A stretch of DNA of 64,000 nucleotides from Halomonas socia (GTDB lineage Bacteria > Pseudomonadota > Gammaproteobacteria > Pseudomonadales > Halomonadaceae). The notes below the pieces were generated by a model, which was not told the origin of the DNA, did not search any database, and was given only the letters and a program-made list of their open reading frames with translations. The stretch lies in assembly GCF_010977575.1 (NCBI RefSeq), contig NZ_CP048812.1:372001-436000 (forward strand). Direction: 5' to 3'. Below, in pieces: positions 3,471-51,041 of this stretch (position 1 is its first letter; every line of letters starts with the position of its first letter). The position numbers and the translations under genes are program-made.

Positions 3471-3486
3471 TGTTTACGACATTAAG

Positions 3487-3501
3487 TAGACGATCGGTCT
3501 A
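3487..3501. promoter_or_regulatory. TetR-type operator palindrome upstream of acuI
   Basis: TAGAC-GATCG-GTCTA, with the same arms and spacing as the site at 2810-2824. It ends 14 bases before the acuI start. Probable AcuR binding site. Confidence 0.78.
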
Positions 3502-3515
3502 AATGGAGATGGCAG

Positions 3516-4505
3516 ATGTTCAAGGCACTGGTGATCGAAAAGTATGAGGATGGACAACAGGTGGGCATCAAAGCGCTGAAGGATGCCCAGCTCCCCGATG
3601 GCGACGTGACGGTCCGGGTGGTCTGCAGCACATTGAACTACAAGGATGCGCTAGCCATTACAGGCAAAGGTCCACTAGTCCGGCAGTTCCCCATGGTGCC
3701 AGGGATTGACTTGGCGGGCACGATCGAGGCGTCTAGTAGCGATACCTTCAAGCCAGGTGATGCGGTGCTGCTGAATGGTTGGGGGGTAGGTGAAAAGCAT
3801 TGGGGCGGCCTGGCGGAGAAAGCCCGCCTGGACAGCCGCTGGCTGATTCCTCAGCCCACCGCATTTACTGCACAACAAGCCATGGCGATTGGCACGGCGG
3901 GTTACACCGCAATGCTGTCAGTGATCGCTCTGGAGCGCCATGGCGTCACGCCCGACCGGGGCGATGTATTGGTAACGGGGGCTAACGGTGGCGTAGGCAG
4001 TTATGCAATCGCATTGCTCACATCGCTTGGTTATCAGGTGGTAGCTTCCACGGGGCGCCCCCAAGAGGCAGAATATCTGCGGGCGCTGGGAGCCCAAAAG
4101 ATCATAGACCGCCAGTCGCTGTCGGAACAGGGCCGCCCGCTGGCTAAAGAGCGCTGGGCGGGGGCCATCGACGCAGTGGGAAGTCACACATTGGCAAATG
4201 TTCTTGCTTCTACGTGCTACGGCGGCACGGTAGCGGCTTGTGGGTTGGCTCAGGGTATGGATCTCCCCGCCAGTGTGGCGCCTTTTATCCTTCGTGGCGT
4301 AACGCTGGCGGGGATCGATAGCGTGATGCGGCCATATGCTGATCGTGTCGAGGCATGGTACCGGTTGGGTGAATTGCTTAACCCCGAGCAGCTTGAAGCC
4401 ATCACGCAAACGATTGCCCTCGAGGATGCTATCGAAACCGCGGCAGATCTACTTGCTGGCAATGTGCGCGGCAGAGTGGTGGTGAAAATGCCCTCTGAAT
4501 CCTGA
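3516..4505 (+). CDS. acuI: Acrylyl-CoA reductase (NADPH), AcuI/YhdH type
   Basis: A 329-residue zinc-free medium-chain dehydrogenase/reductase. The N-terminal catalytic fold carries [16 protein letters not shown] and [13 protein letters not shown], the NADPH-binding Rossmann motif is [13 protein letters not shown] (about 155-165), and the family segment [18 protein letters not shown] is present. AcuI/YhdH enzymes reduce toxic acryloyl-CoA to propionyl-CoA, protecting cells during DMSP, acrylate or 3-hydroxypropionate metabolism. A GGAG-type ribosome binding site lies 8 bases before ATG 3516. Together with acuR it forms a minimal acrylate-detoxification unit; the gabD-like pair just upstream may be functionally related. 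Confidence 0.9.
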
Positions 4506-4799
4506 GACATTCCCAGAAAACACATAATAACATCAGTGACATATTATTGAAAAAGTCCGCATGGGTTGGCACGTTGTAAGTCGCCAAACACACAATGATG
4601 CCGAAGGAGACCCATGCAGTCCCCTCGATCCTTGCACACTCTGCTGGCCTCATCACTCCCTGTGATCCACGCCATACGCCTGCACGCGCCTTGAACCGCC
4701 TTATTCATGAGGCCAGCCTGAAAACGAAGATAGCGGATGGCATTCTCTTGTGAAATCAGTGCGTTCCGCCAAGAACCTGATCCGAGAGAACCATCCGCT
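4506..4799. other. Intergenic scar between acuI and IS1380 remnant
   Basis: No credible gene on either strand. The right-hand part, from about 4712, looks like the left end of the IS1380-type element whose truncated transposase begins at 4800. The left part is AT-richer and featureless, with no convincing terminator after acuI. Confidence 0.4.
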
Positions 4800-5324
4800 A
4801 TGGGTGAAAGCGTATCTCCCTGGATTCCGTCCTGCAACGGCTCCATCCGCGTTGAGTTCAACGGACAGCGCTCCACCAGCGACAACGGCGTTCTGCTGTT
4901 GCGTGAAGCCCTCGACAACAGCGGCGTGATCGAGGCGCTCGAAGACAATCTGGTCGATCAGCGCCACCCGCTGCGCATTCGCCACAGATACGCACCCTGG
5001 TGCTATGCTACAGCGAGCCATGGGCTGAATCGACCGGTCTGGCGTCTGGCCTCGCTGAAAAACGGCGAGCGCCTCTCGCAGTTGACCCTGGACATCGACG
5101 GCCTGCCGATTGAGGTCCACGGTCACCAAGGCTGTTCGGCATTTCATGGGCTTTACGGCGCACGGATCTACTCGCCATTGGTCGCCTCGCTGGCCGAAAC
5201 CGGTGATATGGTCGGCGGCCTGCTGCGCGAGGGCAACACCGCAAGCGCGGCAGCTGCGAACGCAGCCGACAAGCTATGGAGTCACAGCGCACGATTCGGC
5301 ACTCTCGTGAATAAGGCGGGTTGA
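4800..5324 (+). pseudogene. IS1380-family transposase fragment
   Basis: The start MGESVSPWIPSCNGS and FNGQRSTSDNGVLLLREAL match the N-terminus of IS1380-type transposases. A later block (LTLDIDGLPIEVHGHQG, then HGLYGARIYSPLVASLAETG) matches the DDE core with its first Asp. Between them the sequence departs from the family for about 30 residues. After about residue 160 the family sequence stops. The family is about 430-450 residues, so this is an internally deleted, C-terminally truncated relic. It ends where an IS3-type end begins on the opposite strand. Confidence 0.75.
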
Positions 5325-5503: not shown

Positions 5504-6823
5504 TTAAGTGGTCAAGCAGTGTTCTACTAGCCATAGTAAAGGCGCTGCCGTGACTACCATGGCTAAGTTATAACGCCAGTGCCATAGCAATATCTGCCCC
5601 ATGCTGACCCCGTAACGTCCTTGCATGGTGAGGTTGAGGCCGGAGAACGGGCTTGCCACGGTGGCCACACTCCATCCGATCAGGAAGGCGACGGCAAGGA
5701 GCGTCGGGTCGGGGTGCAAGGGTGACAACAAGGTGCCCACGGCGGCGACACCGATGACGGGATGCACGCCGATCAGGGACAGCACGACGATGCCGACTAT
5801 CACCAGCCAGGCTTCGATGGCTCCGAAGGCCGAAAAGGGGGTCCACTCACCCAGTTGCAGGATGACGCTATGCAGCCCGGCGGCCATGACGCCGGCACTG
5901 AGGAACAGGGCCAGCTCATTCTCCACTCTGGGGATGTTGTAGCAGACGTGGCGTGTGGCCCGCTGAGCCGGGTTCGTCCCGCCAAGCGCAACCCCCGCGA
6001 GGGCAGCGATGGGGGCGAGCGTGGTGATGACCGCAATCACGGACAGATCCGGTCTTGCCACATAAGTGCCGATGACGAGGATCGCAAGGACAGAGGGGAT
6101 GACAAGACGCTGGAAGTCCACGGGGTAGCCGCGGAAGTGCTCGCCGACGTGGCGTCCGGTACCCATCCAGGTTCCCCCCGCTGCTAGCAAGGCCATCGGC
6201 AGGCCGACGGCCATCAGATGCATGAGGTTGGCACCAGGGGCGAAGGTGAGGGTCACCGCCATGGCGGCAAAGAACGGAGACCACAATTCTGCCGTCGTGA
6301 AACCTCGGGTCAGCAGAATGGTTTCGGCGCGCCCCAGGGGCTCGTGCCGACGGAGTTGATCTGCCACGATAAGGACCGCAGAGAGGTTGATCACGGCCCC
6401 GAACAGATGCACCCCCGCGAAGGTGTTCCGGAATCCGCCGGGTCCGTTATCCCGTCGATTGCCCGCCGTGTCCGTCCCGCTCGGCATGGTGACAAGCTGT
6501 AGGAAGCTGACGCCGACCAGCAGGCCGACGATCGGTATGCCGTTGGTCAGTGCGGCCTGCCAGTCAGGCGCGGCACCGTGCATCGCACCCCAGCCGATGC
6601 CAGCCAGGCCGACCGTCATCAAGGCGAGCGAGATGCCGCGGACACGACTCGCCAGGCGTGGCCATACGCCCCCCAAGGCCAACCAGCCGCAGGTGGCTGC
6701 TGGCAACATCCATGCAGGGTGCACCAGCACCCCAAGCGCGGCACCGATGCACACTACGGCAAGCGCCGACCCCACCAGCGGCCGGCGCGCATCCTTCAGC
6801 AGCCGGGTATCGACCGTACTCAT
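5504..6823 (-). CDS. Polytopic membrane protein, putative permease of unknown substrate
   Basis: A 439-residue, strongly hydrophobic protein with roughly ten to twelve apparent membrane segments (for example VGSALAVVCIGAALGVLVHP and AWLVIVGIVVLSLIGVHPVI) and short polar loops. I do not recognise the family with confidence. Repeated Gly-rich half-helices (NLSAVLIVADQL, FAPGANLMHLMAVGLP, SVATVASPFSGLNLTMQG) suggest an ion-coupled organic-anion permease. The start at 6823 is one base past the aldehyde dehydrogenase stop (translational coupling), so it is the last gene of the acyl-CoA operon and probably imports that pathway's substrate. The import role is inferred from position only. Confidence 0.6.
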   Translation of the reverse strand: MSTVDTRLLKDARRPLVGSALAVVCIGAALGVLVHPAWMLPAATCGWLALGGVWPRLASRVRGISLALMTVGLAGIGWGAMHGAAPDWQAALTNGIPIVGLLVGVSFLQLVTMPSGTDTAGNRRDNGPGGFRNTFAGVHLFGAVINLSAVLIVADQLRRHEPLGRAETILLTRGFTTAELWSPFFAAMAVTLTFAPGANLMHLMAVGLPMALLAAGGTWMGTGRHVGEHFRGYPVDFQRLVIPSVLAILVIGTYVARPDLSVIAVITTLAPIAALAGVALGGTNPAQRATRHVCYNIPRVENELALFLSAGVMAAGLHSVILQLGEWTPFSAFGAIEAWLVIVGIVVLSLIGVHPVIGVAAVGTLLSPLHPDPTLLAVAFLIGWSVATVASPFSGLNLTMQGRYGVSMGQILLWHWRYNLAMVVTAAPLLWLVEHCLTT

Positions 6824-6824
6824 G

Positions 6825-8249
6825 TCAGGATTGGAGCTGCAGGGCCTTGTATTCGAGGAACTCCTCCAACCCATACCGCCCCAGCTCTCGGCCGTGACCG
6901 GACTGCTTGAATCCGCCGAAGGGTGCCTTCAGGTTGAACGGGCCGCCATTGATGTCGATCTGTCCTGCTCGGATGCGCCGTGCCACCCGCTCTGCCCGAG
7001 CATCGTCCGCCGACCAGACGGCCCCCGCGAGACCGTAGATGGTGTTGTTGGCGATCTCCACGGCATGCGCTTCGTCGGTGTAGGGAATCACGGCCAGCAC
7101 CGGCCCGAAGATCTCCTCCTGGGCGATGGTGGCCCTGGGGTCCACGCGCCCGAACACCGTGGGCCGTATATAATGACCCTTGTCGAAGCCGGCAGGGCGC
7201 TCCTCTCCACCGGCAAGCAACGTCGCCCCTTCCCGGATACCGACGCGTATATAGTCGAGTACTGCCTCGCGCTGTTCGGCGGACACCAGCGGCCCGATGC
7301 GGGTGGCTGCGTCCAGTGGGTCACCCACGGCGAGCCCCTCGGCGAGGTTGGCAGCAAGGGCGGCTGCCTCATCGTGCACTTCTTCGGGTACCAGCAGGCG
7401 CGTATAGGCGTTGCAGTTCTGACCGGAGTTGAGGAAGCAGTTGGCCACGGTGGCCTTGACGGCCTTTGCGAGATCCGCATCGTCCAGCAGCACCGACGGC
7501 GATTTTCCACCCAGTTCGAGCGCTACACGTTTCACCGAGTTCGCGGCAACCGTCGACACGCGCTTGCCCGCACGCGTCGAGCCGGTGAGGGAGACCATAT
7601 CCACCTCGGGATGACCGGCAAGGGCTTCGCCAACGGTGGCGCCGTCGCCGGTGACGAGATTGAACACACCGGCCGGCAGTCCTGCGGCGTGAATGATCTC
7701 GGCCAGCACGAAGGCGTTCAGCGGTGCCAACTCCGACGGCTTGAGTACGACGGTGCAGCCGGCTGCCAGGGCAGCTGCCACCTTGGCCGCGATCTGGTGC
7801 AGCGGATAGTTCCAGGGGGTGATGCAGGCGACAACGCCAACGGGCTCGCGCAGCACCCGGGAATTGCCCACCGACTCCTCCAGGGGGAAATCGGGCAGCA
7901 GTTTGGCATACATCCCGAACGATGCGGCAGGCAAGATCGCCTGAATGCGTCGGGTGAGTTTCAGCGGCATCCCCATTTCCGAGGTGATCAGTTGTGCGAT
8001 TTCCTCGGCGCGTTCCTCCAGACCTGCCTGGATCCGCGCGAGAATGGCCGCCCGCTCCCCGGCTGGGGTTGCCGCCCAGGCCGGAAAGGCGCGATGAGCC
8101 GCCTTCACCGCTGCATTGACGTCATCGGTCGTCCCTGCGGGTATGTCGCCGATGATCGCCTCGCTGGCGGGGCACTGGACGGTGATTCGTTGATGGCCCG
8201 TCGGTGCGATCCAATCTCCCTCTATATATAGATGGGTACGTGACGTCAT
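6825..8249 (-). CDS. NAD(P)-dependent aldehyde dehydrogenase
   Basis: A 474-residue aldehyde dehydrogenase. The catalytic Cys lies in [11 protein letters not shown], the general base Glu in [10 protein letters not shown], and cofactor contacts in [13 protein letters not shown] and [10 protein letters not shown] prefer the ATG at 8249 ([13 protein letters not shown]) over an in-frame upstream ATG because GAGG lies about 7 bases before it. It sits in an operon with a CoA ligase and two crotonase-fold enzymes. In ferulate-type pathways the equivalent enzyme oxidises the aldehyde released by the hydratase-lyase (vanillin dehydrogenase). The sequence itself does not define the aldehyde. Confidence 0.85.
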
Positions 8250-8293
8250 GGATAAGCCTCGATCAATGTCCACGAGCCGGGGCGCGACAGCAC

Positions 8294-9088
8294 CTAGCGA
8301 CTCCTGAAGGTGGGTTTGCGCTTCTCGACGAAGGCGCGGGCGCCTTCCAGGTGGTCTTCGGTCATGCCGCAGCGTGTGTGGTGCCAGGCTTCCAGATCCA
8401 TCACCTCGGCCAGCGTGCCGGTCTCTGCCGCATTGAGATTGCGCTTCATGTAGCCATACGCAATGCGCGGTCCAGCGGCGAGGTGGGTGGCAAGGGCCTG
8501 GGTCTCCTCTTGCAGGGCATCGTTTGCCACGACCCGGTTGACCATTCCCAGGCGCAGCGCCTCGGCAGCATCGACATGCGCCGACAGATAATAGAGTTCC
8601 CGGGCCTTGGACGGACCAACCAGCCTGGTCAGGAAGAAGCTGCCGCCGAAGTCGCCGGAGTAGGCCACCTCGCCGAAGGCGGTGATCAGCCTGACATTGT
8701 CTGAGGCGATACGCAGGTCGCAGGACAGGGCGATGGAGAGCCCCGCACCGGCCGCCACTCCTCTCACCATGGCCAGGGTGGGCTTGGGCATATCATGCAG
8801 CAGGCGCGCGCACTCCATGGCACGTCGCAGGGTCTGGGCACGGCCCTCCAGCGTCGGCTCGGTGAACTCCTCGCCGGAGGCCATCCCCGCCACGTCACCG
8901 CCGGCACTGAAGGCGCGGCCGCTGCCCGTGACGATGACCACGGCCACCTCAGTATCGTGGGCCAGTTCCTCGAGGGTCGCACTGAGCTGAAGGAAGCCGT
9001 TCGTGGACAGCGCATTCAGCTTGCTTGGACAGTCCAGGGTGACCCAGGCGATGCCGTCGCTGACGGTGGAGGTCACTTCACGTTTCAT
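8294..9088 (-). CDS. Enoyl-CoA hydratase/isomerase family protein (PaaG-like active site)
   Basis: A 264-residue crotonase-fold protein with oxyanion-hole segments RAFSAGGDV and [16 protein letters not shown]. Compared with classical enoyl-CoA hydratases, the first catalytic Glu (in GGGCE) is replaced (GAGLS) and the second (QPE) is absent, while an Asp is present in SGDFGGS. This is the arrangement seen in PaaG-like enoyl-CoA isomerases, so isomerisation rather than plain hydration is likely. Its start overlaps the stop of the upstream ligase by 4 bases (ATGA), indicating coupling. Confidence 0.8.
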
Positions 9089-11268
9089 GAGATGTTGCTC
9101 CTGGAGTTGGAGGCTGGGATGAGGCTGGAAGGTTGGGCTGAAGGCTTTGCGTCGTTGCCCGGCCGTCCCGGCGTCAGTACCACCAGGGCGTCCAGCACCA
9201 CCATGCCCTGGCCGATGCTGCGGACAAGGACGGGGTTGAGATCGATGGATTCAATGCGCTCCTCCGACAGCATCAGGCTTCCCAGCCGCTCGGCCGCGTC
9301 GCAAAAGGCAGGAAGGTCCAGGGGCGGTTCGTCCCGGGCGCCTTGGAGAACGGGCCAGATGCGGGTGCGTTGCAGCGCTCGCAGCACCTCGTCGGCGGTG
9401 AATGGAGGGGCGAGCAGCTCGTAGTCGCGCAGGGCTTCCACGTACTTGCCACCGTCACCGGCCATGATCACCGGGCCGAAGACCGGGTCCCGTTTTGCGC
9501 CCAGCACGAGTTCCCGCCGCCCGGTTTCCTGTCGGGCCACGACCACCGTGCCGTCTGCCCCAAGCCGGTGCATTATGTTCGTGCAGTCGTCAAACATCTG
9601 CCGGGCCAGCTTCGGGGAGTCGACTCCCAGCTTGACGAGGCCATGCTCCGACTTGTGCGGCAGTGCCGCACTGCAGGCCTTGACCACGCAGGGCGTACCC
9701 AGTGCGTGCAGCGCTGACTCCGCTTCGTCGGGGCTGCGGCAGACGCGATAGACGACAACGGGAATGCCGATTGCCTCCAGCAGCTCCAGACTCTGCACTT
9801 CGTCCAGGACTTCGCCGGCATCGGCCGGCAGTGCAGCGGCCAGGTGTCGGGTTTCGATGGGCAACTCTTCGGCCATCAGTGCCCGGTGCGCCACGACCTG
9901 TCGGATCGCGGCCAGGGCATCTGTATCGCTCTGAAAGGTGGGAATGCCCTGTGCCGAGAACTGCTGCAGCACGTTGCGCTGGGGGCCGGATACCACCACC
10001 GGCTTGCCTTTCTCCCGGATGACCGCGCGAGCCGCGCTGGCAAAGGCGGTCAGGTCGTAGCCCTGGCCGGCCACTGGGACGCCGATGTGAATGATGTCGA
10101 TGGCAGGGTCATCGGCAATGGCGGCGAGGGCCTGTTCGAACAGTGCGCTGTCCCCCAGCAGGCCGGCCGTGAGATCCAGGGGGTTCTGGATGGCGCCGAA
10201 GGCGGGCATGATCTCGCGCAGTCGCCGTGCGGTGACGTCGGATAGCTCGGGAAGGGTCACCCCCAGACGCTCGGCCGCGTCGGCGCAGACCACGCCCACC
10301 GCGCCGCTGTGGCTCATGATGAGCACGCATCCCTTGCCGGTAGGCGCTTCGCCCAGGTAGAGCGCGGCGGCTCTGGCCAGTTCCGCGGTGTCCTGCACGC
10401 GCCAGATACCGTGGCGACGCAGATACGCAGTGACCACCGCATCCTCGCTGGCCAGCGCGCCCGTGTGGGACCGCGCAGCGCTGGCCCCGCGGGCGCTGGA
10501 GCCCGGTTTGAGGGCCACCACGGCGACGCCCCGGCGGCGCGCCCGCTGCGCTGCTCGAGCCAGCGCGTCGGCGTCCTGGATCCCCTCCATATAGAGCAGC
10601 ACGAGACGAATCTCTGAATCTTCCAGCACGCCGTCCAGCAGATCGGCGGTGGTGAGGTCGGCTTCATTGCCCGTGGCAAGAACATAGCGGGCGCCGAGAT
10701 CGTTTTCACGCAGCAGGGCGTAAGGCATCACGCTGGCAGCACCGCTCTGGCTGATGATGGCAATGGGGCCGTCCTGCGGGGGAACCTCGGCAAACATCGT
10801 GGAGAAATTGGCGATGGCGCCGCTGCGCAGATTCGCCAGGCCCTGGGAGTTTGGGCCGATCAGCCGGCTCCCTCCGGCTCGGGTGATCTCGACCAACCGC
10901 CGTTCCGCTTGCCGCCCGGCTTCTCCGGTTTCCCGGAAGCCGGAGCTCATGATGATGATGGCCTGGATGCCCTGATCCACACAGTCGCGAACGGCTTGTT
11001 CCGCGCGCGCCGCGGACAGCGCGATGATGGCGAGATCGGGTGTGGTCGGCAGGTCGGCGAGGGACGGGTAGCAGGTGAGCCCTTGCACTCTGCTGCGCCG
11101 GGGATTGACGGGATAGATTGCCCCTTGGAAACCGAAGCGCTGCATGTAATGGATGGGTCTGCCACCCACACTGTTCGGGTTGTCCGTTGCACCGATGATG
11201 GCAACTGCGGCCGGGTCGAGCGCCGACGCTGCCCAGTCCAGACGTTGCGCTGCCGGGGTCATGGTCAT
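9085..11268 (-). CDS. Acyl-CoA synthetase (ADP-forming), FerA/acetate-CoA ligase type
   Basis: A 727-residue single-chain NDP-forming ligase: CoA-binding Rossmann domain (AAVAIIGATDNPNSVGGRP, residues about 18-140), succinyl-CoA-synthetase-like domains with the phosphorylated His in ARSHTGALASEDAV (about 266), and a C-terminal ATP-grasp domain (about 490-715, with CVVKACSAALPHKSEHG). It converts a carboxylic acid, ATP and CoA to acyl-CoA, ADP and Pi. Ferulate-CoA ligase FerA of Sphingobium belongs to this family. Coupling to two crotonase-fold enzymes and an aldehyde dehydrogenase makes a hydroxycinnamate-like substrate attractive, but other acids are possible. It overlaps both neighbours by 4 bases or less. 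Confidence 0.85.
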   Translation of the reverse strand: MTMTPAAQRLDWAASALDPAAVAIIGATDNPNSVGGRPIHYMQRFGFQGAIYPVNPRRSRVQGLTCYPSLADLPTTPDLAIIALSAARAEQAVRDCVDQGIQAIIIMSSGFRETGEAGRQAERRLVEITRAGGSRLIGPNSQGLANLRSGAIANFSTMFAEVPPQDGPIAIISQSGAASVMPYALLRENDLGARYVLATGNEADLTTADLLDGVLEDSEIRLVLLYMEGIQDADALARAAQRARRRGVAVVALKPGSSARGASAARSHTGALASEDAVVTAYLRRHGIWRVQDTAELARAAALYLGEAPTGKGCVLIMSHSGAVGVVCADAAERLGVTLPELSDVTARRLREIMPAFGAIQNPLDLTAGLLGDSALFEQALAAIADDPAIDIIHIGVPVAGQGYDLTAFASAARAVIREKGKPVVVSGPQRNVLQQFSAQGIPTFQSDTDALAAIRQVVAHRALMAEELPIETRHLAAALPADAGEVLDEVQSLELLEAIGIPVVVYRVCRSPDEAESALHALGTPCVVKACSAALPHKSEHGLVKLGVDSPKLARQMFDDCTNIMHRLGADGTVVVARQETGRRELVLGAKRDPVFGPVIMAGDGGKYVEALRDYELLAPPFTADEVLRALQRTRIWPVLQGARDEPPLDLPAFCDAAERLGSLMLSEERIESIDLNPVLVRSIGQGMVVLDALVVLTPGRPGNDAKPSAQPSSLIPASNSRSNIS

Positions 11269-12053
11269 GAACGGCCCTCAGAGCGCTTGCTGCGGCTGGT
11301 GCGCTCCTCCAGGAAGCGGCGCATGATGAGCTGAGGAGCTCCGCCTTTGTAGTCTTCAAGGTGGAAGTCGACCGTGGCCCGACAGGCGCCGTCGAAGCCA
11401 GCCTGGGTAACGTCACGAAAGCGGCGCTTGGTCAGCCGCACTGCCGTGCGCGGTAGGCTGGCGAACTCCTTGGCGAGTGCCACGGCCCGCGGCAGGACGG
11501 CCTCGGCTGAGGTCAGCTCGTTGATCAGCCCGACTTCCCGGGCCCGGGTGCCGCTGATCAGCTTGCCCATCAGCGACAGTTCAACGTTCTGTGCATAGCC
11601 CAGGTGCAGGGACATCAGGTAGGAGCCGAGGATGCTGGACAATCCTACTCGAACCTCAGGCTGACCGAGGTGAATGTCGGCGTGTGCAACCCTGAGATCG
11701 GCCAGCAGCCCCATCTGGAAGCCGACACCGACAGCGAGGCCATTGAAGGCGGCCACTACGGGCTTGTCCAGGTTACGTACGGCGGCGAGCAGCGCAGACT
11801 GGTGGTTCATCCAGGCTTCCACCTCATGCAGTTCGAATGCAGCGGCCTCGGCCAAGTCCTGACCTGCGGAGAAAGCTCGATCGCCTGCCCCCGTCAGCAC
11901 GACGGCACCGATGGCATCGTCCTCGTTCAAGGCGCCAAGCGTGTCGATCAAGGTATCGCGCATGGTGGCGTCGATGGCATTCATCACGTCCGGGCGATTC
12001 AGGGTGACGATGACGACCGCCTCCTCGCGGCTTATTTGTACGGATTCTTCCAT
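11265..12053 (-). CDS. Enoyl-CoA hydratase/lyase family protein, first gene of the acyl-CoA operon
   Basis: A 262-residue crotonase-fold protein with DRAFSAGQDL and NGLAVGVGFQMGLLADLR, and the second catalytic Glu retained in LGQPEVRVGL. The first catalytic Glu of classical hydratases is Gln here (GVGFQ). Hydroxycinnamoyl-CoA hydratase-lyases also keep only the second Glu, so a hydratase-lyase role is possible but not shown. I prefer ATG 12053 because GAGG lies 5 bases upstream; ATG 12056 and GTG 12068 are in frame. Its end overlaps the ligase start by 4 bases. It faces the divergent LysR gene. Confidence 0.8.
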   Translation of the reverse strand: MEESVQISREEAVVIVTLNRPDVMNAIDATMRDTLIDTLGALNEDDAIGAVVLTGAGDRAFSAGQDLAEAAAFELHEVEAWMNHQSALLAAVRNLDKPVVAAFNGLAVGVGFQMGLLADLRVAHADIHLGQPEVRVGLSSILGSYLMSLHLGYAQNVELSLMGKLISGTRAREVGLINELTSAEAVLPRAVALAKEFASLPRTAVRLTKRRFRDVTQAGFDGACRATVDFHLEDYKGGAPQLIMRRFLEERTSRSKRSEGRS

Positions 12054-12211
12054 CATGGCCTCGGTCACTGGTTTGCCGCCGTTGGCATGCTGGGCCGGGG
12101 CGGCTGGGGTTATTCCAGAGCGGTGGTTTTCGCTGGCGTAGTGTGTGAGCTAGACCATGGCGAGATTTCTGTTATTTTGGAATCGCATGATTTAAATATC
12201 TGGTATGCGAA

Positions 12212-13126
12212 ATGCGTATGTCGTCACTGAATCTTCGTGCCGTGGAAGTCTTCGTCTGTGTTTGCGAGCTCGGTAGCCTGACCCGGGCCGCCATGGCACT
12301 GGGCCTGACTCAGCCAAGCGCCAGCCGGGCCATCTCCGGGCTGGAAGAGCACCTCGGGGGGAGCCTGCTGCTGCGTACGGGTCGGGGGGTCACGCCCACC
12401 GAGCTCGGCCAGGCTGCGCTGCCGCGCATGCAGTCGTTGCTGACGGAAGCGGAGGCGCTGTCCACGGACTTGCGGGATCTAGGCCGGTCCCCCACCGGAA
12501 TGGTGACTGTCGGCATATTGCCCTCCCTGACTCAACCCCTTGCAGGACTCTTGTTCGACCATTTACGGCGGCACTTTCCGAGACTGCAGCTGCGCATTCT
12601 GGAAGGGTTCAGTCCGCAGATCGAAGAGTGGCTGGCGGCCGGACGGGTCGACGTTGGCCTGCTCAGCCACTACCGGCGCTCCCGCTCTTCCCAAGAGGAG
12701 GAGTTGCTCACGGAGCGGCTCATGCTGGTAGGGCCGCCCGACAAGCGCTTCCCCAGGGAGGCAATCCCCTTCCACGCTCTCGCTGGACTGCCGCTGGTGC
12801 TGCCCGCCCGGCCCAACGGCTTGCGCGTTCTTGTGGACGAGACCACGGCACGTCAGGGCGTGTCTCTGGATATCGTCATGGAGGCCGACTGCCTGGGCGC
12901 ACAGAAAGATGTGATCCGGCATTTCGGCTGTTTCGCGATCCTTAGTCCTCAGGCCGTCCAGGAGGCTCTGAATCTCGGTCAACTGAGATGCACGACGATC
13001 ATTGAGCCCGAGCTCACCCGCCGCGCCGTGCTCGCCTCCACCACTCATCGCCCGCTCAGTCGGGGAGCTCGCGAAGTCATGCGGGCCATCCGCGAGATCA
13101 CCGACTCCTTGTCAATCGAAGCTTGA
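12212..13126 (+). CDS. LysR-family transcriptional regulator
   Basis: A 304-residue LysR protein: N-terminal winged helix (residues about 5-65: NLRAVEVFVCVCELGSLTRA and GLTQPSASRAISGLEEHLGG), then a periplasmic-binding-protein-like effector domain. It is transcribed away from the acyl-CoA ligase operon and 138 bases upstream of the TTT operon, so it could control either or both. Intergenic DNA before it contains CGCAT (12184-12188) and ATGCG (12205-12209) as inverted halves. No clear ribosome binding site precedes the ATGs at 12212 and 12218. Confidence 0.85.
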   Translation: MRMSSLNLRAVEVFVCVCELGSLTRAAMALGLTQPSASRAISGLEEHLGGSLLLRTGRGVTPTELGQAALPRMQSLLTEAEALSTDLRDLGRSPTGMVTVGILPSLTQPLAGLLFDHLRRHFPRLQLRILEGFSPQIEEWLAAGRVDVGLLSHYRRSRSSQEEELLTERLMLVGPPDKRFPREAIPFHALAGLPLVLPARPNGLRVLVDETTARQGVSLDIVMEADCLGAQKDVIRHFGCFAILSPQAVQEALNLGQLRCTTIIEPELTRRAVLASTTHRPLSRGAREVMRAIREITDSLSIEA

Positions 13127-13264
13127 CAACTTCCCTATGCATCAGCCATGAATATAATCGCCAGCTTGTAATAAACAAATACAACTTTCCCGGCTGTGTC
13201 GAAAATCTCACTCGACTTTGTGAGGTGCATCGTTGTCGGGACGATATTTTAGGAGCAATTCACT

Positions 13265-14263
13265 ATGAGCAAACTCCGCGTCAAGACAGTGCCAGGCATG
13301 TTGACAGCAACCGCCGTGACCGGGGCCTTGGCCTTGGGAGCGTTTCCTGTGACGAGCATGGCTGTGGAAAACTATCCTGAGAGCAACCTAACTGTCATGG
13401 TGCCCTACCCGCCGGGCGGTTTTACCGATCAGGTGGGGCGTCTAGTGGCGGACGGGCTTTCGGAGCGCCTGGGGGAGACCGTGGTGGTCGACAACCGCCC
13501 CGGAGGAGGCACGGTAGTAGGCCAGGATCGTGTGGCCAGTGCCAGCCCAGACGGTTATACACTAGGTATCGCACCCTTCGCTTTTGCGGTCAATCCTGGA
13601 CTATTCGATGATCTGCCATATGACACGGAAAGCGACTTTGCTCATATCGCGACGCTCGGCACGGCTTTTAACGTCATGGTGGCCTACCCGGGATTCGAGC
13701 CAAACACGGTGGAGGAGTTAGTAGAGTATGCCAAGGCCAATCCCAATGCGGTGAACTGTGGCTCAGCTGGTGTAGGCTCCTCGCCTCACCTCGCCTGTGA
13801 GATGTTCAGCGCGCTAAGCGGCATTGAGTGGGAGCACATCCCTTATGGCGGTAGTGCCCCCTCACGCGTCGATCTTGAAGCAGGCCGCATTGAAATCATT
13901 ATCGATAACTACTCCAACGTTAAACCGTTGGTGGATGATGGTCGTGCCAAGGCCTTGGGCGTCACACTCACTGAAGAGAGCGAGCTGATGCCGGGTATCC
14001 CGCCGATCGCCGACACTGTCGAAGGCTATGAGGTGTTAACTTGGTGGGGGCTCTATGCGCCGGCTGGTGTTCCTGACGAAATTGTCGCCAAGCTTAATGA
14101 GGCGGTAAACGACACGTTACAGTCCGAAGAGTTGTTGCAGGCCTTCGATAGAGAGGGGGTAACACCGGTGACTGGTACGCCGGAGGAGGCGCGAGAATTC
14201 GTCGATAGTCAAATGCAGACCTGGATTCCCATCGCAGAAGACATCGATATGGATGCCTATTAG
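13265..14263 (+). CDS. Tripartite tricarboxylate transporter substrate-binding protein (TctC/Bug family)
   Basis: A 332-residue periplasmic binding protein. A Sec signal peptide is followed by probable cleavage after VTSMA (about residue 34). Bug-family motifs are VMVPYPPGGFTDQVGR, VVVDNRPGGGTVVGQD, SPDGYTLG and HIPYGGSAP. It would capture a carboxylated substrate and deliver it to the TctB/TctA-type membrane components 3.5 kb downstream on the same strand. AGGAG lies 8 bases before the ATG. The acidic mature protein fits a halophile periplasm. Confidence 0.88.
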   Translation: MSKLRVKTVPGMLTATAVTGALALGAFPVTSMAVENYPESNLTVMVPYPPGGFTDQVGRLVADGLSERLGETVVVDNRPGGGTVVGQDRVASASPDGYTLGIAPFAFAVNPGLFDDLPYDTESDFAHIATLGTAFNVMVAYPGFEPNTVEELVEYAKANPNAVNCGSAGVGSSPHLACEMFSALSGIEWEHIPYGGSAPSRVDLEAGRIEIIIDNYSNVKPLVDDGRAKALGVTLTEESELMPGIPPIADTVEGYEVLTWWGLYAPAGVPDEIVAKLNEAVNDTLQSEELLQAFDREGVTPVTGTPEEAREFVDSQMQTWIPIAEDIDMDAY

Positions 14264-14385
14264 AGCGTGCCGAGGCGTCGACTGGCTATCTCACCCAGCG
14301 GTCGACGCTAGGTCCTTGATCATGAGCGTGGTGCTGGTCGCCGTTTAACGGCCAGTTCGTTCTACCATCGACATCGGTGCTCCTC

Positions 14386-15372
14386 ATGGCTTGTATCGTT
14401 ATAACCGATCCTATCGATCCCGTGGTGCGTCGCCGTCTGGAAGTATATGCAGATGTCCTCGACCTACCAGAGGAGGGAAGTTTCACCTCGGCTCATGTGC
14501 TCGAACGGGCAGATATCCTCGTTGTCCGACGACTCCTTTCGCCAGATATTATCGATGCAACCCCTCGGTTACGTGCCTTTGTAAGGCATGGCGTCGGAGT
14601 GGATTTCATTCCTGTGGGTGAAGCATCAAGGCAAGGAATCGCCGTCACAAACGCGCCGGGTGTCAATGCCAATAGCGTCGCAGAGCACACCATTGGCATG
14701 ATAATCGCCCTGCGGAGACATATCGCCCTCATGGATCGTGGGCTGCGATCTGGACACTGGGCCAGCCTGCGCCAAAAGGCCGTTTTCGGTAGGGAGTTGG
14801 GCGGGCAGACCCTCGGCTTACTGGGTTTCGGCAGCGTGGGAAGGCGCATAGCAGCAATCGCACGACTGGGGTTTGGTATGAGGATCCTTGCGCACCGCCA
14901 AAGTGCCGAGACTGGCGAGACAGAGATAACGTTCTGCTCCCTTGAACAGCTGTTCGAGGATAGCGATATCGTGGTGGTGGCCTGCCCGCTAAATGATCAT
15001 ACGCAGGGCATGGTCGGACGCGATATGCTCGGTCGCTTAGGGCCAGAAGGCCTTCTGGTTAATATCGGACGGGGCGCCATTCTGGATGAAGGTGCTATGC
15101 TCGATATGCTCGCGAACGGCCAATTAGGTGCCGCCGCTCTGGACGTGTTTACTGAGGAGCCGCTGCCCACAGCGAGCGCATTACGCCAACTGGACAATGT
15201 GCTCTTGACCCCCCATGTGGCAGGAATTTCTGTCAACAGCAATCTGGGCATGAGCACCTTGGCGGCGGCGGATAGTCTGCGCATTCTGAGAGGATATAGG
15301 CCGCGCTATCTCATCAATGATCAAGCTTGGCATGTCATCGAGAAACGCTGGGCCAGGTTGGGGCGATGCTAG
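14386..15372 (+). CDS. D-isomer-specific 2-hydroxyacid dehydrogenase
   Basis: A 328-residue enzyme of the SerA/glyoxylate-reductase superfamily. The NAD-binding motif is GLLGFGSVGRRIA (about 147-159). The catalytic triad can be assigned as Arg in NIGRGAIL, Glu in FTEEPLP and His in LTPHVAGIS. It reversibly oxidises a D-2-hydroxyacid to a 2-oxoacid. It has no C-terminal ACT domain, so a serine-biosynthetic SerA is unlikely. I prefer ATG 14386; a GTG at 14377 is also in frame, and neither has a strong ribosome binding site. It lies between the TTT binding protein and two enolase-superfamily genes, so it may act on the product of a dehydratase from the same pathway. Confidence 0.85.
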   Translation: MACIVITDPIDPVVRRRLEVYADVLDLPEEGSFTSAHVLERADILVVRRLLSPDIIDATPRLRAFVRHGVGVDFIPVGEASRQGIAVTNAPGVNANSVAEHTIGMIIALRRHIALMDRGLRSGHWASLRQKAVFGRELGGQTLGLLGFGSVGRRIAAIARLGFGMRILAHRQSAETGETEITFCSLEQLFEDSDIVVVACPLNDHTQGMVGRDMLGRLGPEGLLVNIGRGAILDEGAMLDMLANGQLGAAALDVFTEEPLPTASALRQLDNVLLTPHVAGISVNSNLGMSTLAAADSLRILRGYRPRYLINDQAWHVIEKRWARLGRC

Positions 15373-15442
15373 AAAAATGTGACTTTATATAACAGTTATG
15401 CTGCGTTATAGCTAACTATCACAGGCGAGAAGGGGAATAGTT

Positions 15443-16588
15443 TTGAAAATAGCTTCCGTACACGCTGACGTGTATTCGTGTCCGTTTGAAGGCGTCGCCG
15501 TCACTCAGGGTGTCGGCAACATGGTGAAAAGGGATCTGGTCCTGATAAGAGTCACTGCTGAGGATGGCACCGTCGGCTACGGCGAATCTCACATGGGGCT
15601 GAACCCCACAGCAATCGCCGAGGTAGTCAACCACAGTATGGCACCGCAGGTCGTTGGTCAGGACGTCTTCGATGAGGCTGGCATCTGGGAGCGGGTCTAC
15701 CGCCATCAGATCGTTACCCATGGGCTCGGGGCGGGCAGTACCATCGCTTTCAGCGGTATCGACATCGCGCTCTGGGATCTGCGCGGGAAGCTCTTGGAGC
15801 AACCCGTCTATAGGCTGCTCGGCGGGCGCAACAAGTCAATCCGAGCTTATGCAGGCGGCATGGGGCTGGGCTGGCAAGATAAGGAAAGCCTGGCGGCCGA
15901 AGTACAGAAATACGTGGATGCCGGCTATACGGCGATCAAACTGCGTGTCGGGCAGGGAGTCGATATCGACGCCGAGAGGGTGAGTCATGTCCGCGAGGCG
16001 GTCGGCAACGGTGTGGATATCGCCCTCGACGCTGCCACCCGCTACCGTCTGGAGGATATGGGGCAAGTGTTGCAGTACGCAGAGGCGAACCGGGTGCTCT
16101 GGCTGGAGGAACCCATCACACCTGACGATGTGCAAGGCTATGCGGAAATTCGTCGATCTACCTGGGTACCCATTGCCGCGGGCGAAAATCACTACACTCG
16201 ACAAGCCTTCCGTGATCTCTTCTCTGCACGGGCGATCACCATATGTCAGGCCGACTGCACCAAGGCTGGTGGCCTGTCGGAAACCAAGAAGATCGCCGAC
16301 ATGGCAGCAGCTTGGCACCTGCGCGTGGCTCCACACTTAAGCCAGAGTATCATCAGTACGGCGGCCAATGTGCACCTGCTCTGTGCCCTACCCAATGCCA
16401 TGATCTACGAAGCGGATATCTCGCGCATCAATCCCTGGCGGGACGACCTAGCCCGCAATCCGCTGCGGGTCGTTGACGGCTACATTCAACCGAACGAAGA
16501 GCCAGGTCTCGGCCTGGACATCGACGAATCCATCCTTGAGCAGTATCCGGCCATCCCCGGGCCCTCGTACGTGCCAGCAAGGCCCTGA
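15443..16588 (+). CDS. Mandelate racemase/muconate lactonizing enzyme family protein (copy 1)
   Basis: A 381-residue enolase-superfamily enzyme: an N-terminal capping domain (residues 1-125) and a C-terminal barrel. Metal ligands appear to be Asp in ALDAATRY, Glu in WLEEPIT and Glu in AAGENHYT. The barrel strand-2 motif is AIKLRVG, with Arg where many family members have the second Lys of KxK, and a late-barrel His is in VAPHLSQS. Likely a dehydratase or epimerase of a hydroxy- or sugar acid; the substrate is unknown. The start is TTG 15443 preceded by AGAAGGGGA; no suitable ATG exists upstream. It is paralogous to the next gene. Confidence 0.85.
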   Translation: MKIASVHADVYSCPFEGVAVTQGVGNMVKRDLVLIRVTAEDGTVGYGESHMGLNPTAIAEVVNHSMAPQVVGQDVFDEAGIWERVYRHQIVTHGLGAGSTIAFSGIDIALWDLRGKLLEQPVYRLLGGRNKSIRAYAGGMGLGWQDKESLAAEVQKYVDAGYTAIKLRVGQGVDIDAERVSHVREAVGNGVDIALDAATRYRLEDMGQVLQYAEANRVLWLEEPITPDDVQGYAEIRRSTWVPIAAGENHYTRQAFRDLFSARAITICQADCTKAGGLSETKKIADMAAAWHLRVAPHLSQSIISTAANVHLLCALPNAMIYEADISRINPWRDDLARNPLRVVDGYIQPNEEPGLGLDIDESILEQYPAIPGPSYVPARP

Positions 16589-16636
16589 CAAGCGATGACT
16601 AACTGGCCGCCGGCCTGTCTAGAGGAGAAGTACCGC

Positions 16637-17776
16637 ATGAAGATTACCAAAGTAGATGTATATCCCGTCTCCCACAAGATGGGGCCGGGAGAGGGTCCAA
16701 CCCTCGGCGTGGGTCGCATGATCAAGCGCGACGCCATCATCATCAAAATTACCAGCGACGACGGCCTCGTCGGCTGGGGCGAGGCCCACCATGCCAAGGC
16801 GCCTGCCGCCGTCGCACGGCTCATAGAGGGAACCCTGGCGAACATGGTGGTCGGCATGAGTGCCTTCGACGTGGTGGGCGTCTGGCATCGTCTCTACCGC
16901 GGACATCTAGCTACCCACGGGATGGGTGCCGGCACGGTGATCGCCATGAGCGGCATCGACATGGCCCTCTGGGATCTGCGCGGCAAGGCGGCAGGGCTTC
17001 CTTTATGCCAACTCCTTGGCGGAGACTTCAAGGATCTGCCTGCTTATGCAGGAGGGCTCTCCCTGGGTTTCCAGCCTGAAATGCAACTGGTCGAGGAGGC
17101 ATCGGGACTAGTCGAGCAGGGGTATCGGGCCTTGAAGCTGCGCCTTGGCGACACGCCAGCCAATGACTTGGCTCGGGTGCAGGCGGTGCGTAAGGGACTG
17201 GGGCCGGAAGTTGAGATCTTGACTGACGTCAACGCAGCTTACGATCTGGCACAAGTGGCTGCGCTGATCCCCGGGCTGGATGAGTCTCGCGTAGGCTGGC
17301 TGGAGGAACCCTTCCCCCCCTTCGACGAATACAATTACAAGCGTGCAGCTACTATGGGCCGTACGCCGCTGGCTGCGGGAGAAAATCACTACACCCGCTT
17401 CGACTTTGCCCGTCTGCTAGAGCAGGATACTGTGACCGTGCTGCAGCCAGATCTCTCAAAGGCAGGTGGCATCACAGAGGTGCTCAGGATCGCCGCTATG
17501 GCGTCGGTACGTCGGTTGTCCATCAACCCGCACACCTCCATGTCGGGGTTGAATATGGCTGCCTCGCTTCACCTTCTCTCTGCCATTGAGAATCCGGGCT
17601 TCTTTGAGGCGGATGTATCCCGCTCCAACCTGTTCCGAACAGCCTTAACATCTGAGCCCTATTCGCTTGACGCTAATGGTAAGGTTCAGGCGCCGAATGG
17701 CCCAGGCTTGGGCGTGGAGGTAGACGAGGGCTTCCTCGCCGCACATCCGCTGATCGATGGTCCCTGTTATGTTTAA
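16637..17776 (+). CDS. Mandelate racemase/muconate lactonizing enzyme family protein (copy 2)
   Basis: A 379-residue enolase-superfamily enzyme sharing the opening of copy 1 (MKI..V..DVY, NMVKRD/RMIKRDA), the capping-domain motif SGIDMALWDLRGKA, the strand-2 motif ALKLRLG, and metal ligands in LTDVNAAY, WLEEPF and AAGENHYT. The late-barrel residue is NPHTSMSG. ATG 16637 is chosen because AGGAG lies 8 bases upstream; the frame extends upstream without a signal. Two adjacent paralogs suggest either two stereoisomers or successive steps such as epimerisation then dehydration. Confidence 0.85.
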   Translation: MKITKVDVYPVSHKMGPGEGPTLGVGRMIKRDAIIIKITSDDGLVGWGEAHHAKAPAAVARLIEGTLANMVVGMSAFDVVGVWHRLYRGHLATHGMGAGTVIAMSGIDMALWDLRGKAAGLPLCQLLGGDFKDLPAYAGGLSLGFQPEMQLVEEASGLVEQGYRALKLRLGDTPANDLARVQAVRKGLGPEVEILTDVNAAYDLAQVAALIPGLDESRVGWLEEPFPPFDEYNYKRAATMGRTPLAAGENHYTRFDFARLLEQDTVTVLQPDLSKAGGITEVLRIAAMASVRRLSINPHTSMSGLNMAASLHLLSAIENPGFFEADVSRSNLFRTALTSEPYSLDANGKVQAPNGPGLGVEVDEGFLAAHPLIDGPCYV

Positions 17777-17800
17777 CATGGCATGAGCGCGAGGTGAATT

Positions 17801-18250
17801 ATGAAAACAATTATTACCGACAAAACCCTTCTCTCCGGCGTGTTGTTCCTCGCAATAGGTACCAGTTTCTGGATTGCCGCGCAGGACTATGCTTTTGGCA
17901 CCCTACGCCGCATGGGCCCGGGGTTCTTTCCCTCCTACTTAGGTGCGATTCTTGCCATTATCGGTCTGCTAATGGTAGTTCAGACATTGATCCGCAAGCG
18001 CCACGAGGCGATTCCTCCCCTCTTTCTTCGCCCCCTGCTGTTTCTGACTGCCGGCATCCTGGCGTTTGCGGCACTGATCGATCGTGCGGGGTTGATTGCT
18101 GCCTGCTTAGCAGCCGTTCTCCTCTCCAGTCAGGCCAGTCGTGACACACGGCTGCTGGAATCCCTAGTAGTGGCAATTCTGATGGCTACTTTCTCTGTGA
18201 TCGTCTTTATTGTTCTGCTAGGCCTGCCATTCCGCATGTGGGTGATTTAA
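17801..18250 (+). CDS. tctB: Tripartite tricarboxylate transporter small membrane subunit (TctB family)
   Basis: A 149-residue protein with four apparent membrane helices (LLSGVLFLAIGTSFWIA, YLGAILAIIGLLMVVQT, LLFLTAGILAFAALI and a C-terminal ILMATFSVIVFIVLLG). The motif RRMGPGFFPSYLG is characteristic of TctB. It works with the large subunit encoded directly after it and with the binding protein at 13265. A GAGG-type ribosome binding site lies 8 bases before ATG, and the stop codon abuts the tctA start. Confidence 0.88.
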   Translation: MKTIITDKTLLSGVLFLAIGTSFWIAAQDYAFGTLRRMGPGFFPSYLGAILAIIGLLMVVQTLIRKRHEAIPPLFLRPLLFLTAGILAFAALIDRAGLIAACLAAVLLSSQASRDTRLLESLVVAILMATFSVIVFIVLLGLPFRMWVI

Positions 18251-19780
18251 ATGGACATGTTTCCGAATCTTTCTATGGGCTTTGGTCAGGCCCTGTCTCT
18301 GTCGAACCTCATGTACTGTTTTACCGGCGTAGTGCTTGGCACCTTTGTCGGTGTATTGCCAGGACTTGGTGCGGTCACAGCTATCGCAATGCTACTCCCC
18401 TTCACGTTCGGACTCGATCCCCTTGGTGCACTCATCATGCTGTCTGGGATCTTCTATGGTGCTCTCTATGGTGGCTCAACCGCCTCAATTCTGCTGAACC
18501 TACCAGGAACGCCTGCCGCCGCCGTGGTATGCATCGATGGTCACCCGATGGCTAAGCAAGGCCGGGCCGGGGTCGCATTGTTCATGACCGCGGTGGCCTC
18601 CTTCGTTGGCGGCACCATCTCGATAGTGATCCTCTCCATAGCAGCTCCTCTGCTGGCCCAAGTAGCTCTCCAGTTTGGCGCCCCGGAATACTTCGCGATG
18701 TTGGTGCTAGGTCTGCTTGCGGCAGCATCACTCGCTGCGGACTCACTTCTGCGGAGTATCGCCATGGTCATCCTAGGCCTGTTGCTCGGCATGGTAGGTA
18801 TGGACATTATCTCGGGAATGAACCGTTTCACGTTTGGCGTTCCAATCCTGTCCGAGGGTTTAAGCTTCATCATTGTGGCCATGGCTTTGTTCGGGGTGGC
18901 CGAAGTGGCCACTAACTTGGAGGCGCGCTCTGGTCAAGGCGTCCCGTTGGGCAAACCGGGCTGGCGCTCAATGCTTCCCAATCGGGATGAGCTCCGTCGA
19001 TCCACAGGGGCGATACTGCGAGGCACCGGCGTCGGGGCCGCGCTTGGCGCCTTGCCGGGAGCGGGGCCAACTATGTCGTCTTTCATGGCCTATTCGGTGG
19101 AGAAGCGGAACGCCAAGCAACCTGAGCGCTTCGGCAAGGGGGCCATCGAAGGGGTAATAGCCCCGGAAGCAGCAAACAATGCAGCTGCCCAGACGGGTTA
19201 TATTCCGACGCTGACGTTGGGCATCCCAGGTGATGCGGTTATGGCCCTGATCCTTGGCACATTGATTATTCACGGTATCACGCCGGGACCGCAGGTCATT
19301 TCGACCCACCCTGAACTATTCTGGGGGCTGATTGCCAGCATGTGGATCGGAAACTTTCTGCTACTTTGGGTCAATATACCATTCATTGGAATGTGGATTC
19401 GCCTGCTTACTCTTCCCTATCGCTGGCTATTTCCGGCCATTGTGATCTTTCTTTGTATTGGGGTTTACAGTATTAGCAATAGTGCTTTTCATCTAGTTGT
19501 ACTTGGGGCCCTTGGAGTTGCCGGTTATCTCTTGGCCAAGCTCGATTGTCCGGCCGCGCCGTTGCTATTAGGATTGATCCTTGGACCGATGCTGGAGGAG
19601 AATTTTCGCCGAGCGTTGCTCATTAGTCGGGGTGATCTCAGTGTGTTCATCGAGCGACCGATTAGCCTCTCAATTCTGATTATTGCTGCGGTATTGCTGT
19701 TGCTATCGGTTTTTGCGGAGATTCGTCGGGCCAGGCGTGAGCGGCATGCCGCGCTGATGGAAAGCGAATCGACCAGCTGA
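18251..19780 (+). CDS. tctA: Tripartite tricarboxylate transporter large permease subunit (TctA family)
   Basis: A 509-residue permease of about 12 helices with TctA hallmarks: [19 protein letters not shown] near residue 30, [18 protein letters not shown] near 80, and [18 protein letters not shown] and [15 protein letters not shown] in the second half (inverted-repeat halves). It completes a TctC-TctB-TctA uptake system. The start is adjacent to the tctB stop. No clear terminator follows; IS remnants begin within 200 bases, so any further operon gene may have been lost. Confidence 0.92.
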
Positions 19781-19982
19781 TGGAAGGCTGGTAGGCTCAG
19801 CTTTTACATAGACAGGAGGAATCAGCGGGTAGACGACGATGCCAGTTACATTGGCATGGGGAAATACTAGAAAAGAGAAGGATGATCAGGATTCCCAGTG
19901 CCGCATTGCAGCCAAACCGGTTCCCATCAAAAGTGGGCCGTACCGGGATGCCCTGAGACTCAAACTTTGAGAGGATGGGGCC
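19781..19982. other. Tail of the TTT operon; possible truncated reading frame before the IS3 remnant
   Basis: AGGAGG at about 19815 is followed by ATG 19839 and a short open frame beginning MPVTLAWGNTRKEKDD, ending in the presumed IS3 left end. The spacing to the ribosome binding site is long (about 19 bases), and I do not recognise the peptide. It could be the 5' stump of another operon gene interrupted by the insertion, or noise. Confidence 0.25.
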
Positions 19983-20865
<883 letters not shown>

Positions 20866-20869
20866 TCAA

Positions 20870-21315
20870 TATTGGAGGTGTTGCATGGGATAATCACGTG
20901 GTTGGGCCGCCGAACAAACGGGCCGGTCACCGATGCGTCGCCTGGCCGACGGGGCCTCAACCAGCGAGATGCCAAGCGCGCGTTCTGGGAGCCCATTACT
21001 GAGGGACTATCGAGTGAGGACGCAGCCTTGGCGTATGGGGTATCGCAGCCGGTGGGATCGCGCTGGTTCCGCAAGGCGGGTGGGATGGCACCGGCCAACT
21101 TGGCACCGCACTCAGGGCGTTATTTGTCATTCACGGCGCGAAGAACTGGCGCTGTTGTGGGCGCAAGGGCATGGGGTTCGCGAGATTGCCAGGTGTCTGG
21201 GGCGGTCGCCGTCGATGGTCGCGCGCGAGTTGCGCCGTAATGCTGCCATCCGGAGTGGCATACTGGAGTATCGGGCCACGGCCGCGCAGTGGCGTTCCGT
21301 TATGACAAGCTGAAG
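20870..21315 (+). pseudogene. IS30-family transposase N-terminal remnant
   Basis: Frame one carries GLNQRDAKRAFWEPITEGLS, then GVSQPVGSRWFRKAGG. The frame changes near 21138 (two bases appear missing from a CGGGAAGAA-type sequence), and continues as REELALLWAQGHGVREIARC and LGRSPSMVARELRRNA, the helix-turn-helix region of IS30 transposases. No DDE catalytic domain follows. A truncated, frameshifted relic about 120-150 residues long; intact proteins exceed 320. Confidence 0.75.
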
Positions 21316-44630: not shown

Positions 44631-44665
44631 GATGGCTCTCCACGATGACAGGCCATCAGCCTATT

Positions 44666-50651: not shown

Positions 50652-50738
50652 GCCCAGATGGCGGAATTGGTAGACGCGCTAGCTTCAGGTGCTAGTGTCC
50701 TTACGGACGTGGAGGTTCAAGTCCTCTTCTGGGCACCA
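50652..50738 (+). tRNA. tRNA-Leu (CAG), copy 1
   Basis: 87 nt with encoded CCA. Acceptor GCCCAGA pairs with TCTGGGC. The D arm is GGCGGAATTGGTAGACGC, the anticodon is CAG in CTTCAGGTG, and a long variable arm (TGTCCTTACGGACG) marks it as class II. The T loop is GGTTCAAGTCC. It reads CUG codons. Confidence 0.97.
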
Positions 50739-50805
50739 ATCGACATCTCCGGATGTCACGGGATCCTCGATTCCACGCTCTTTATCAGCTCGACGGTTCA
50801 TGTTC

Positions 50806-50892
50806 GCCCAGGTGGCGGAATTGGTAGACGCGCTAGCTTCAGGTGCTAGTGTCCTTACGGACGTGGAGGTTCAAGTCCTCTCCTGGGCACCA
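50806..50892 (+). tRNA. tRNA-Leu (CAG), copy 2
   Basis: Identical to copy 1 except that the seventh acceptor pair is G-C (GCCCAGG/CCTGGGC) instead of A-T, a compensatory double change. Confidence 0.97.
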
Positions 50893-50914
50893 CGCGAACA
50901 TGACCACACGATAC

Positions 50915-51001: not shown

Positions 51002-51041
51002 CGCGTATCGTGCAGCAAGAGCCCCCTTCGATGTATTCGCT

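Follow-up and report, generated by a model that had tools for sequence, protein, structure and literature searches.

A probably acquired TTT transporter locus of Halomonas socia contains a member of the 3BJS branch of the enolase superfamily

Transporters of the tripartite tricarboxylate transporter (TTT) family have been predicted to take up sugar acids in microbial-mat bacteria including Halomonas (PMC5507952), and a TTT transporter in Vibrio was reported to be specific for alginate oligosaccharides (PMC13390454). Co-occurrence of MR/MLE and TTT genes has been published for gene clusters centred on arylmalonate decarboxylase (PMC4996985), and in SAR202 bacteria dehydration by enzymes of the mandelate racemase (MR) family is paired with NAD(P)-dependent dehydrogenases (PMC10444878, 2023). 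Here we analyse a TTT transporter locus in a 64,000-nucleotide stretch of the Halomonas socia genome (hereafter the window), in which the transporter genes flank a D-2-hydroxyacid dehydrogenase gene and two adjacent MR-like genes, MR1 and MR2. Like the galactarate-glucarate clusters of Halomonas, with their predicted sugar-acid uptake, the locus combines TctABC with enzymes of the acid-sugar type. Compared by description only, those clusters differ from it in having a GntR-type regulator and, by prediction, hexose diacids as substrates (PMC5507952). It resembles the arylmalonate decarboxylase clusters in the MR/MLE and TTT gene pairing and differs from them in that no such decarboxylase is present among the Pfam-scanned genes of the block. 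We find it to be a real, recurrent locus of a known kind, built around an enzyme branch that has already been crystallised.

The whole locus lies on the plus strand at 12212-19780 and reads LysR, TctC, D-2-hydroxyacid dehydrogenase, MR1, MR2, TctB and TctA, with intergenic gaps of 0 to 138 nt. All six genes from TctC to TctA were assigned by Pfam above gathering scores. The coordinates and gene names of the initial annotation are correct. The TTT transporter set is complete, comprising the solute-binding protein TctC (13265-14263, 212 bits; PDB relatives 2dvz, 2qpq and the terephthalate-binding 8hka), the small membrane subunit TctB (17801-18250, 61 bits) and the large membrane subunit TctA (18251-19780, 515 bits). 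The separation of TctC from TctBA had been regarded as noteworthy, but detached ('orphan') TTT binding proteins were already reported for Bordetella and other bacteria (PMC5812351). The D-2-hydroxyacid dehydrogenase (14386-15372, with a possible alternative GTG start at 14377) has the NAD-binding and catalytic domains 2-Hacid_dh_C and 2-Hacid_dh; glyoxylate reductase 5aov was its sole PDB match at 1e-50, and it reached no NCBIfam equivalog cut-off. MR1 (15443-16588) begins with TTG, and for MR2 (16637-17776) the listed open reading frame (ORF) opens earlier, at 16595. The LysR-family regulator (12212-13126; Pfam LysR_substrate and HTH_1) is situated 138 nt upstream of TctC and 143 nt from a divergent operon, and it probably regulates both flanking operons.

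Both MR1 and MR2 have the N- and C-terminal domains MR_MLE_N and MR_MLE_C and belong to the mandelate racemase subgroup of the enolase superfamily, with the barrel fold modelled for MR2 only. Their best NCBIfam equivalog scores were 220.1 bits against a cut-off of 650 for MR1 and 192.3 against 311 for MR2. Because a galactonate dehydratase of the same window passed at 648.8 against a cut-off of 311, this test was able to succeed. A characterised isofunctional family was rejected for both proteins on these scores, so the outcome that the initial annotation had named as refuting it did not occur. The AlphaFold2 model of MR2 (39 sequences, pLDDT 95.4, pTM 0.94) can be superimposed on chain B of 3BJS, the protein from Polaromonas sp. 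JS666, with a TM score of 0.97 and 0.9 Å at 52% identity, and MR2 has in common with 3BJS the KLR motif, the metal ligands, the catalytic dyad and the fold. A literature search of open-licence papers found no assigned function for 3BJS. The next structures are 3OZM, 3H12 and 3OP2 from Bordetella, with the same fold and subgroup at about 36% identity, and they carry KLK instead of KLR; 3OZM contains m-xylarate, and its incomplete title names 'L-Lyx' as a second ligand. MR2 falls within a 70-member clade (support 0.98), whereas MR1, 43% identical to MR2, lies outside it and groups with the protein of locus L067 (1.00); the node uniting MR1, L067 and L073 has a support of only 0.55. Only MR2 therefore belongs to the 3BJS family by its identity of about 50%, its active-site residues and its clade. 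A recent tandem duplication was rejected on these separate positions, and the sequences indicate that the two are old relatives.

The KLR motif that the initial annotation had seen in both paralogs is present (K167 and R169 in MR2), so that neither has the KxK of mandelate racemase proper, in which the second Lys serves as the S-face base. By alignment, MR2 has K167-L-R169, D197, E223, E249 and D272-H299; by analogy with mandelate racemase, we take D197, E223 and E249 to be metal ligands and D272-H299 the catalytic dyad. D197, E223/E224, E249, D272 and H299 are retained in MR1 as well as MR2, and MR1 has Ala at the position of Asn199 of MR2, as does its nearest relative L067 (59% identity), which also has KxR. 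Our alignment covered 114 MR proteins of more than 300 residues, gathered by similarity to MR2 and including both window proteins; proteins of up to 300 residues were excluded, as were the duplicate loci L001-L005 of the own genome. All 67 MR2 relatives at 49.5% identity or above, from 64 loci, have KxR (66 KLR, one KVR) and keep D197, E223, E249 and D272; H299 is kept in 66, the exception being truncated before that position. The full alignment contains 90 KxR, 16 KxK, 7 KxH and one other, and KMR is found in 16 proteins of a more distant branch (31-38% identity), which in six loci is no more than three genes away from an MR2 relative, in four of them immediately before it. Among 30 PF13378 loci sampled separately, we counted 3 KxR, 17 KxK and 10 something else, the last class being rough since the alignment was gapped at the motif in about 8 of the 30; the sample consists of best-scoring matches rather than random ones, with the own-genome loci L113 and L133 in and L141 out. 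As 67 of 67 relatives, the closest solved structure 3BJS and 3 of the 30 sampled members carry it, KxR is a signature of the branch and not a local oddity, and the earlier notion of a rare or unusual change was ruled out. A search of open-licence papers found nothing about this motif; in PMC5596340 the term 'KxR' denotes a nitrite reductase motif.

The nearest known arrangement is that around 3BJS itself. The Polaromonas plasmid gene BPRO_RS25605 is identical to the 3BJS chain over 382 residues and sits between a hydroxyacid dehydrogenase gene and TctC. The order there is D-glycerate dehydrogenase, succinate-semialdehyde dehydrogenase, NAD(P)-dependent oxidoreductase, hydroxyacid dehydrogenase, 3BJS protein, TctC and a KIH-type MR. 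Unlike the window, the cluster has one KLR enzyme, the KIH-type MR, and an aldehyde dehydrogenase (ALDH) and a reductase in line, with no TctB or TctA annotated in the 25 kb read. To survey other genomes, we took 64 loci from 79 loci (the best 80 matches to MR2) plus the three plasmid loci L088-L090, after dropping L066, L067, L073 and L075-L087 for identities below 49.5%, and L068 and L071 for want of a full-length MR2-type call. The own-genome loci L001-L008 and L091-L093 were left out of the counts, and neighbour genes were called by codon-position score, since longest-ORF calling was poor in GC-rich loci. Several of the 64 loci come from near-identical species, and the following counts are not independent. 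TctC directly follows the MR2 relative in 37 of 60 loci, with at most four at any other offset, and lies within four genes in 43 of 64. In 12 of 63 loci the gene immediately before the MR2 relative encodes a D-2-hydroxyacid dehydrogenase; such a gene is within four genes in 24 of 64 when two types are pooled, and in 21 of 64 when only the type seen in the window and next to 3BJS is counted. A second MR occurs within four genes in 15 loci, and TctC, the dehydrogenase and at least two MR genes are found together in 11 of 64. When 60 unlabelled neighbours (out of 134 cluster representatives and 188 in all) were scanned with Pfam, no family was shared by more than two of them.

A sister module was observed in the same genome. 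Besides TctC, TctB and TctA, locus L092 encodes a KMK-type MR and an FAH-family protein; its dehydrogenase gene is split into two pieces and its MR2-type gene into three. The fragmented stretch (L092 8144-10283, own genome C1 about 1782144-1784283) reflects decay or an assembly error. An intact module with the order TctCBA-MR(KMK)-FAH-dehydrogenase-MR(KLR) is present in another genus of the same family (G042, L097), and L037 and L071 carry much of it. The FAH-family gene, present in L092, L097, L037 and L071 and absent from the window block, is named from the L037 protein, which resembles 2,4-didehydro-3-deoxy-L-rhamnonate hydrolase below the cut-off (182.9 against 500). This sister module with its FAH protein speaks for acid-sugar catabolism by loci of this kind in general.

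The genes from TctC to TctA have GC contents of 0.536-0.598, against a background of 0.664 (standard deviation 0.031; 26 ORFs in 24-64 kb, selected by high third-position GC, which may raise this value somewhat). The LysR gene and the divergent operon look native in composition at 0.633-0.668. Downstream of TctA, broken reading frames at 19898-21313, with a transposase-type helix-turn-helix at 20933-21313 and a short frame at 19983-20138 that matched no Pfam family, likely mark the edge of an acquired block; farther upstream, transposase domains lie at 4737-5324 and 1-342. With MR1 as query and a threshold of E 1e-70, MR1- or MR2-type proteins turned up in 2 of 97 relatives (own genome included) and in none of four congeners; MR2 itself was found at E 1e-105 in 2 of 369 genomes of the class, again counting its own. 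Because the block is GC-poor, is followed by transposase-like remnants and is rare in relatives, it was probably acquired horizontally. The initial annotation had mentioned neither these remnants nor the upstream LysR gene, the divergent operon or the occurrence of KxR throughout the branch.

We consider it likely, at a probability of roughly 0.6, that the locus is an acquired catabolic operon for the uptake of an acid, its one-base dehydration and a subsequent NAD(P)-linked conversion, with a hydroxy or sugar acid as the substrate. TctCBA would import a small acid of this type. MR2 would bind Mg2+ through D197, E223 and E249, and its H299-D272 dyad would supply the main base, with H299 removing the C2 proton while K167 stabilises the enolate, and loss of the 3-hydroxyl would give a 2-oxo acid, which the D-2-hydroxyacid dehydrogenase could interconvert with the D-2-hydroxy acid using NAD(P)H. 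MR1 may work on a related or stereoisomeric acid. The gene content, the motif, the modelled MR2 fold, the linkage to TctC and dehydrogenase genes elsewhere and the deviating composition are observed; the residue roles, the dehydration and its one-base chemistry, the order of steps and the transfer are inferred. A TTT-linked catabolic locus for an acid had also been proposed by the initial annotation, and it is supported by the recurrence of the same gene families together in other bacteria. The same recurrence supports its idea that two paralogs and a dehydrogenase may act in sequence on a hydroxy acid; the racemisation included in that idea is disfavoured by the lost Lys. Several observations weigh against our reading. 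In 20 of the 64 loci, neither TctC, nor the dehydrogenase, nor a second MR lies within four genes, and some MR2 relatives adjoin ABC transporter genes instead. The window block contains no cleaving aldolase or hydrolase, and the neighbouring CoA-ligase and crotonase genes are out of place in a route that simply dehydrates a sugar acid. One-base chemistry is argued from that of mandelate racemase, and Arg can be a base in some enzymes. As to the transfer, the GC background may be somewhat raised, as noted above, and the divergent operon with its ordinary GC separates the block from the upstream transposase remnant.

The best surviving alternative, which we nevertheless regard as rather unlikely, is that the locus acts on a C3-C4 hydroxy acid, for instance a tartrate or glycerate derivative, with flanking genes forming one wider pathway with it to an acyl-CoA. 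The flanking genes in question are those of the divergent operon on the minus strand (5504-12068), comprising ECH2, an ADP-forming acyl-CoA ligase, ECH1 (ECH, enoyl-CoA hydratase or crotonase), an aldehyde dehydrogenase and a last protein, judged by eye to resemble a membrane protein, that matches no Pfam or NCBIfam family, together with two pairs on the plus strand. One pair consists of a succinate-semialdehyde-dehydrogenase-like ALDH (395-1849), above its subfamily cut-off at 747.2 against 646.35, and a 3-hydroxyisobutyrate-dehydrogenase-like reductase (1876-2778), nearest to 2-hydroxy-3-oxopropionate reductase below the cut-off. The other is acuR-acuI (2832-4505), the acrylate regulator and acrylyl-CoA reductase, both over NCBIfam cut-offs; this pair is GC-poor relative to the background and close to a transposase remnant. 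The ALDH and the reductase are 71% and 61% identical to the corresponding pair of the Polaromonas 3BJS cluster, with ALDH matches in four congeners reaching at most 61%, and they are possible partners of the locus, as are acuR-acuI. The Cupriavidus locus L044 contains a tartrate dehydrogenase over the NCBIfam cut-off (565.2 against 470.4), clustered with a glyoxylate-reductase-like gene, whose Polaromonas member is below the cut-off, and with the reductase family of the window. Relatives of the CoA ligase (47-48%) are no more than four genes away from MR2 relatives in L022, L035 and L038, those of ECH2 (48-51%) likewise in L022 and L038, and those of acuR-acuI (55% and 64%) in L022, where all are grouped with MR2; in L110, which has a ligase relative and no MR2, a TctC-like gene adjoins the ligase. 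The full grouping is nevertheless confined to L022, one of 64 loci. The three other ligase-bearing genomes found at E 1e-160 in a draw of 398, the one with L110 among them, all lacked MR2 in the 17-18 kb stretches read, and in the window 10.5 kb and a transposase remnant separate the end of the ALDH pair from TctC. A functional link of the divergent operon to MR2 is accordingly tentative, and a firm link was not upheld. The ligase itself (9085-11268, minus strand) was not found in four congeners at E 1e-100; the closest solved protein is the 4-hydroxybutyrate-CoA ligase 8wzu (285.2 bits), and a function as dimethylsulfoniopropionate lyase was rejected with 228.9 bits for DddX (7cm9; PMC8163506).

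Somewhat less probable still is that MR1 or MR2 acts as a racemase or epimerase to make the D form of an imported 2-hydroxy acid, which the dehydrogenase then oxidises. A D-specific dehydrogenase is indeed directly adjacent, an arrangement repeated in other loci, and the His-Asp dyad and one Lys are retained. Since Arg169 replaces the second base, one-base dehydration is likelier than racemisation, and the second Lys is Arg in every one of the 67 MR2 relatives. Moreover, the nearest function-named structures are dehydratases or cycloisomerases, the dipeptide epimerase 3jva appearing only further down. It seems improbable that MR2, instead of dehydrating its substrate, is a cycloisomerase of lactones or anhydro acids. 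In favour of this, the nearest structures include the 3,6-anhydro-D-galactonate cycloisomerase 5olc (34%) and the proposed galactarolactone cycloisomerase 4hpn (30%). Against it, these identities are low, most other near structures carry no tested function in their titles, and no lactonase-like family recurred among the neighbours (60 of the 188 unlabelled ones scanned). With a similarly small chance, the KxR branch could be one isofunctional family with Arg for the second catalytic base, feeding a CoA-ligase/crotonase/AcuI route here and in Pollutimonas. We know of no description of such a route from a hydroxy acid to an acyl-CoA for enolase-superfamily dehydratases, no search for it having been made.

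Elsewhere in the window, the galactonate dehydratase used above as a control lies at 42722-44119 on the minus strand, together with neighbours on the same strand (41769-42773 and 43867-44643) that by eye only resemble a 2-keto-3-deoxygalactonokinase and a GntR regulator, with no NCBIfam match at 1e-40; these genes are perhaps a De Ley-Doudoroff operon. Four consecutive tRNA-Leu(CAG) genes are located at 50652-51128. The genome as a whole has 19 MR_MLE_C matches at 1e-30 or better, the highest number among 60 genomes searched; some of these are fragments, and several lie beside TctA or TctC.

The structure of 3BJS was released in 2007. For its branch, seen here in 64 loci, the recurring neighbours narrow the choice of acids and partner enzymes to a few that can be tested. 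As for the organism, a genome with 19 MR-family matches probably took up one more such module by transfer.

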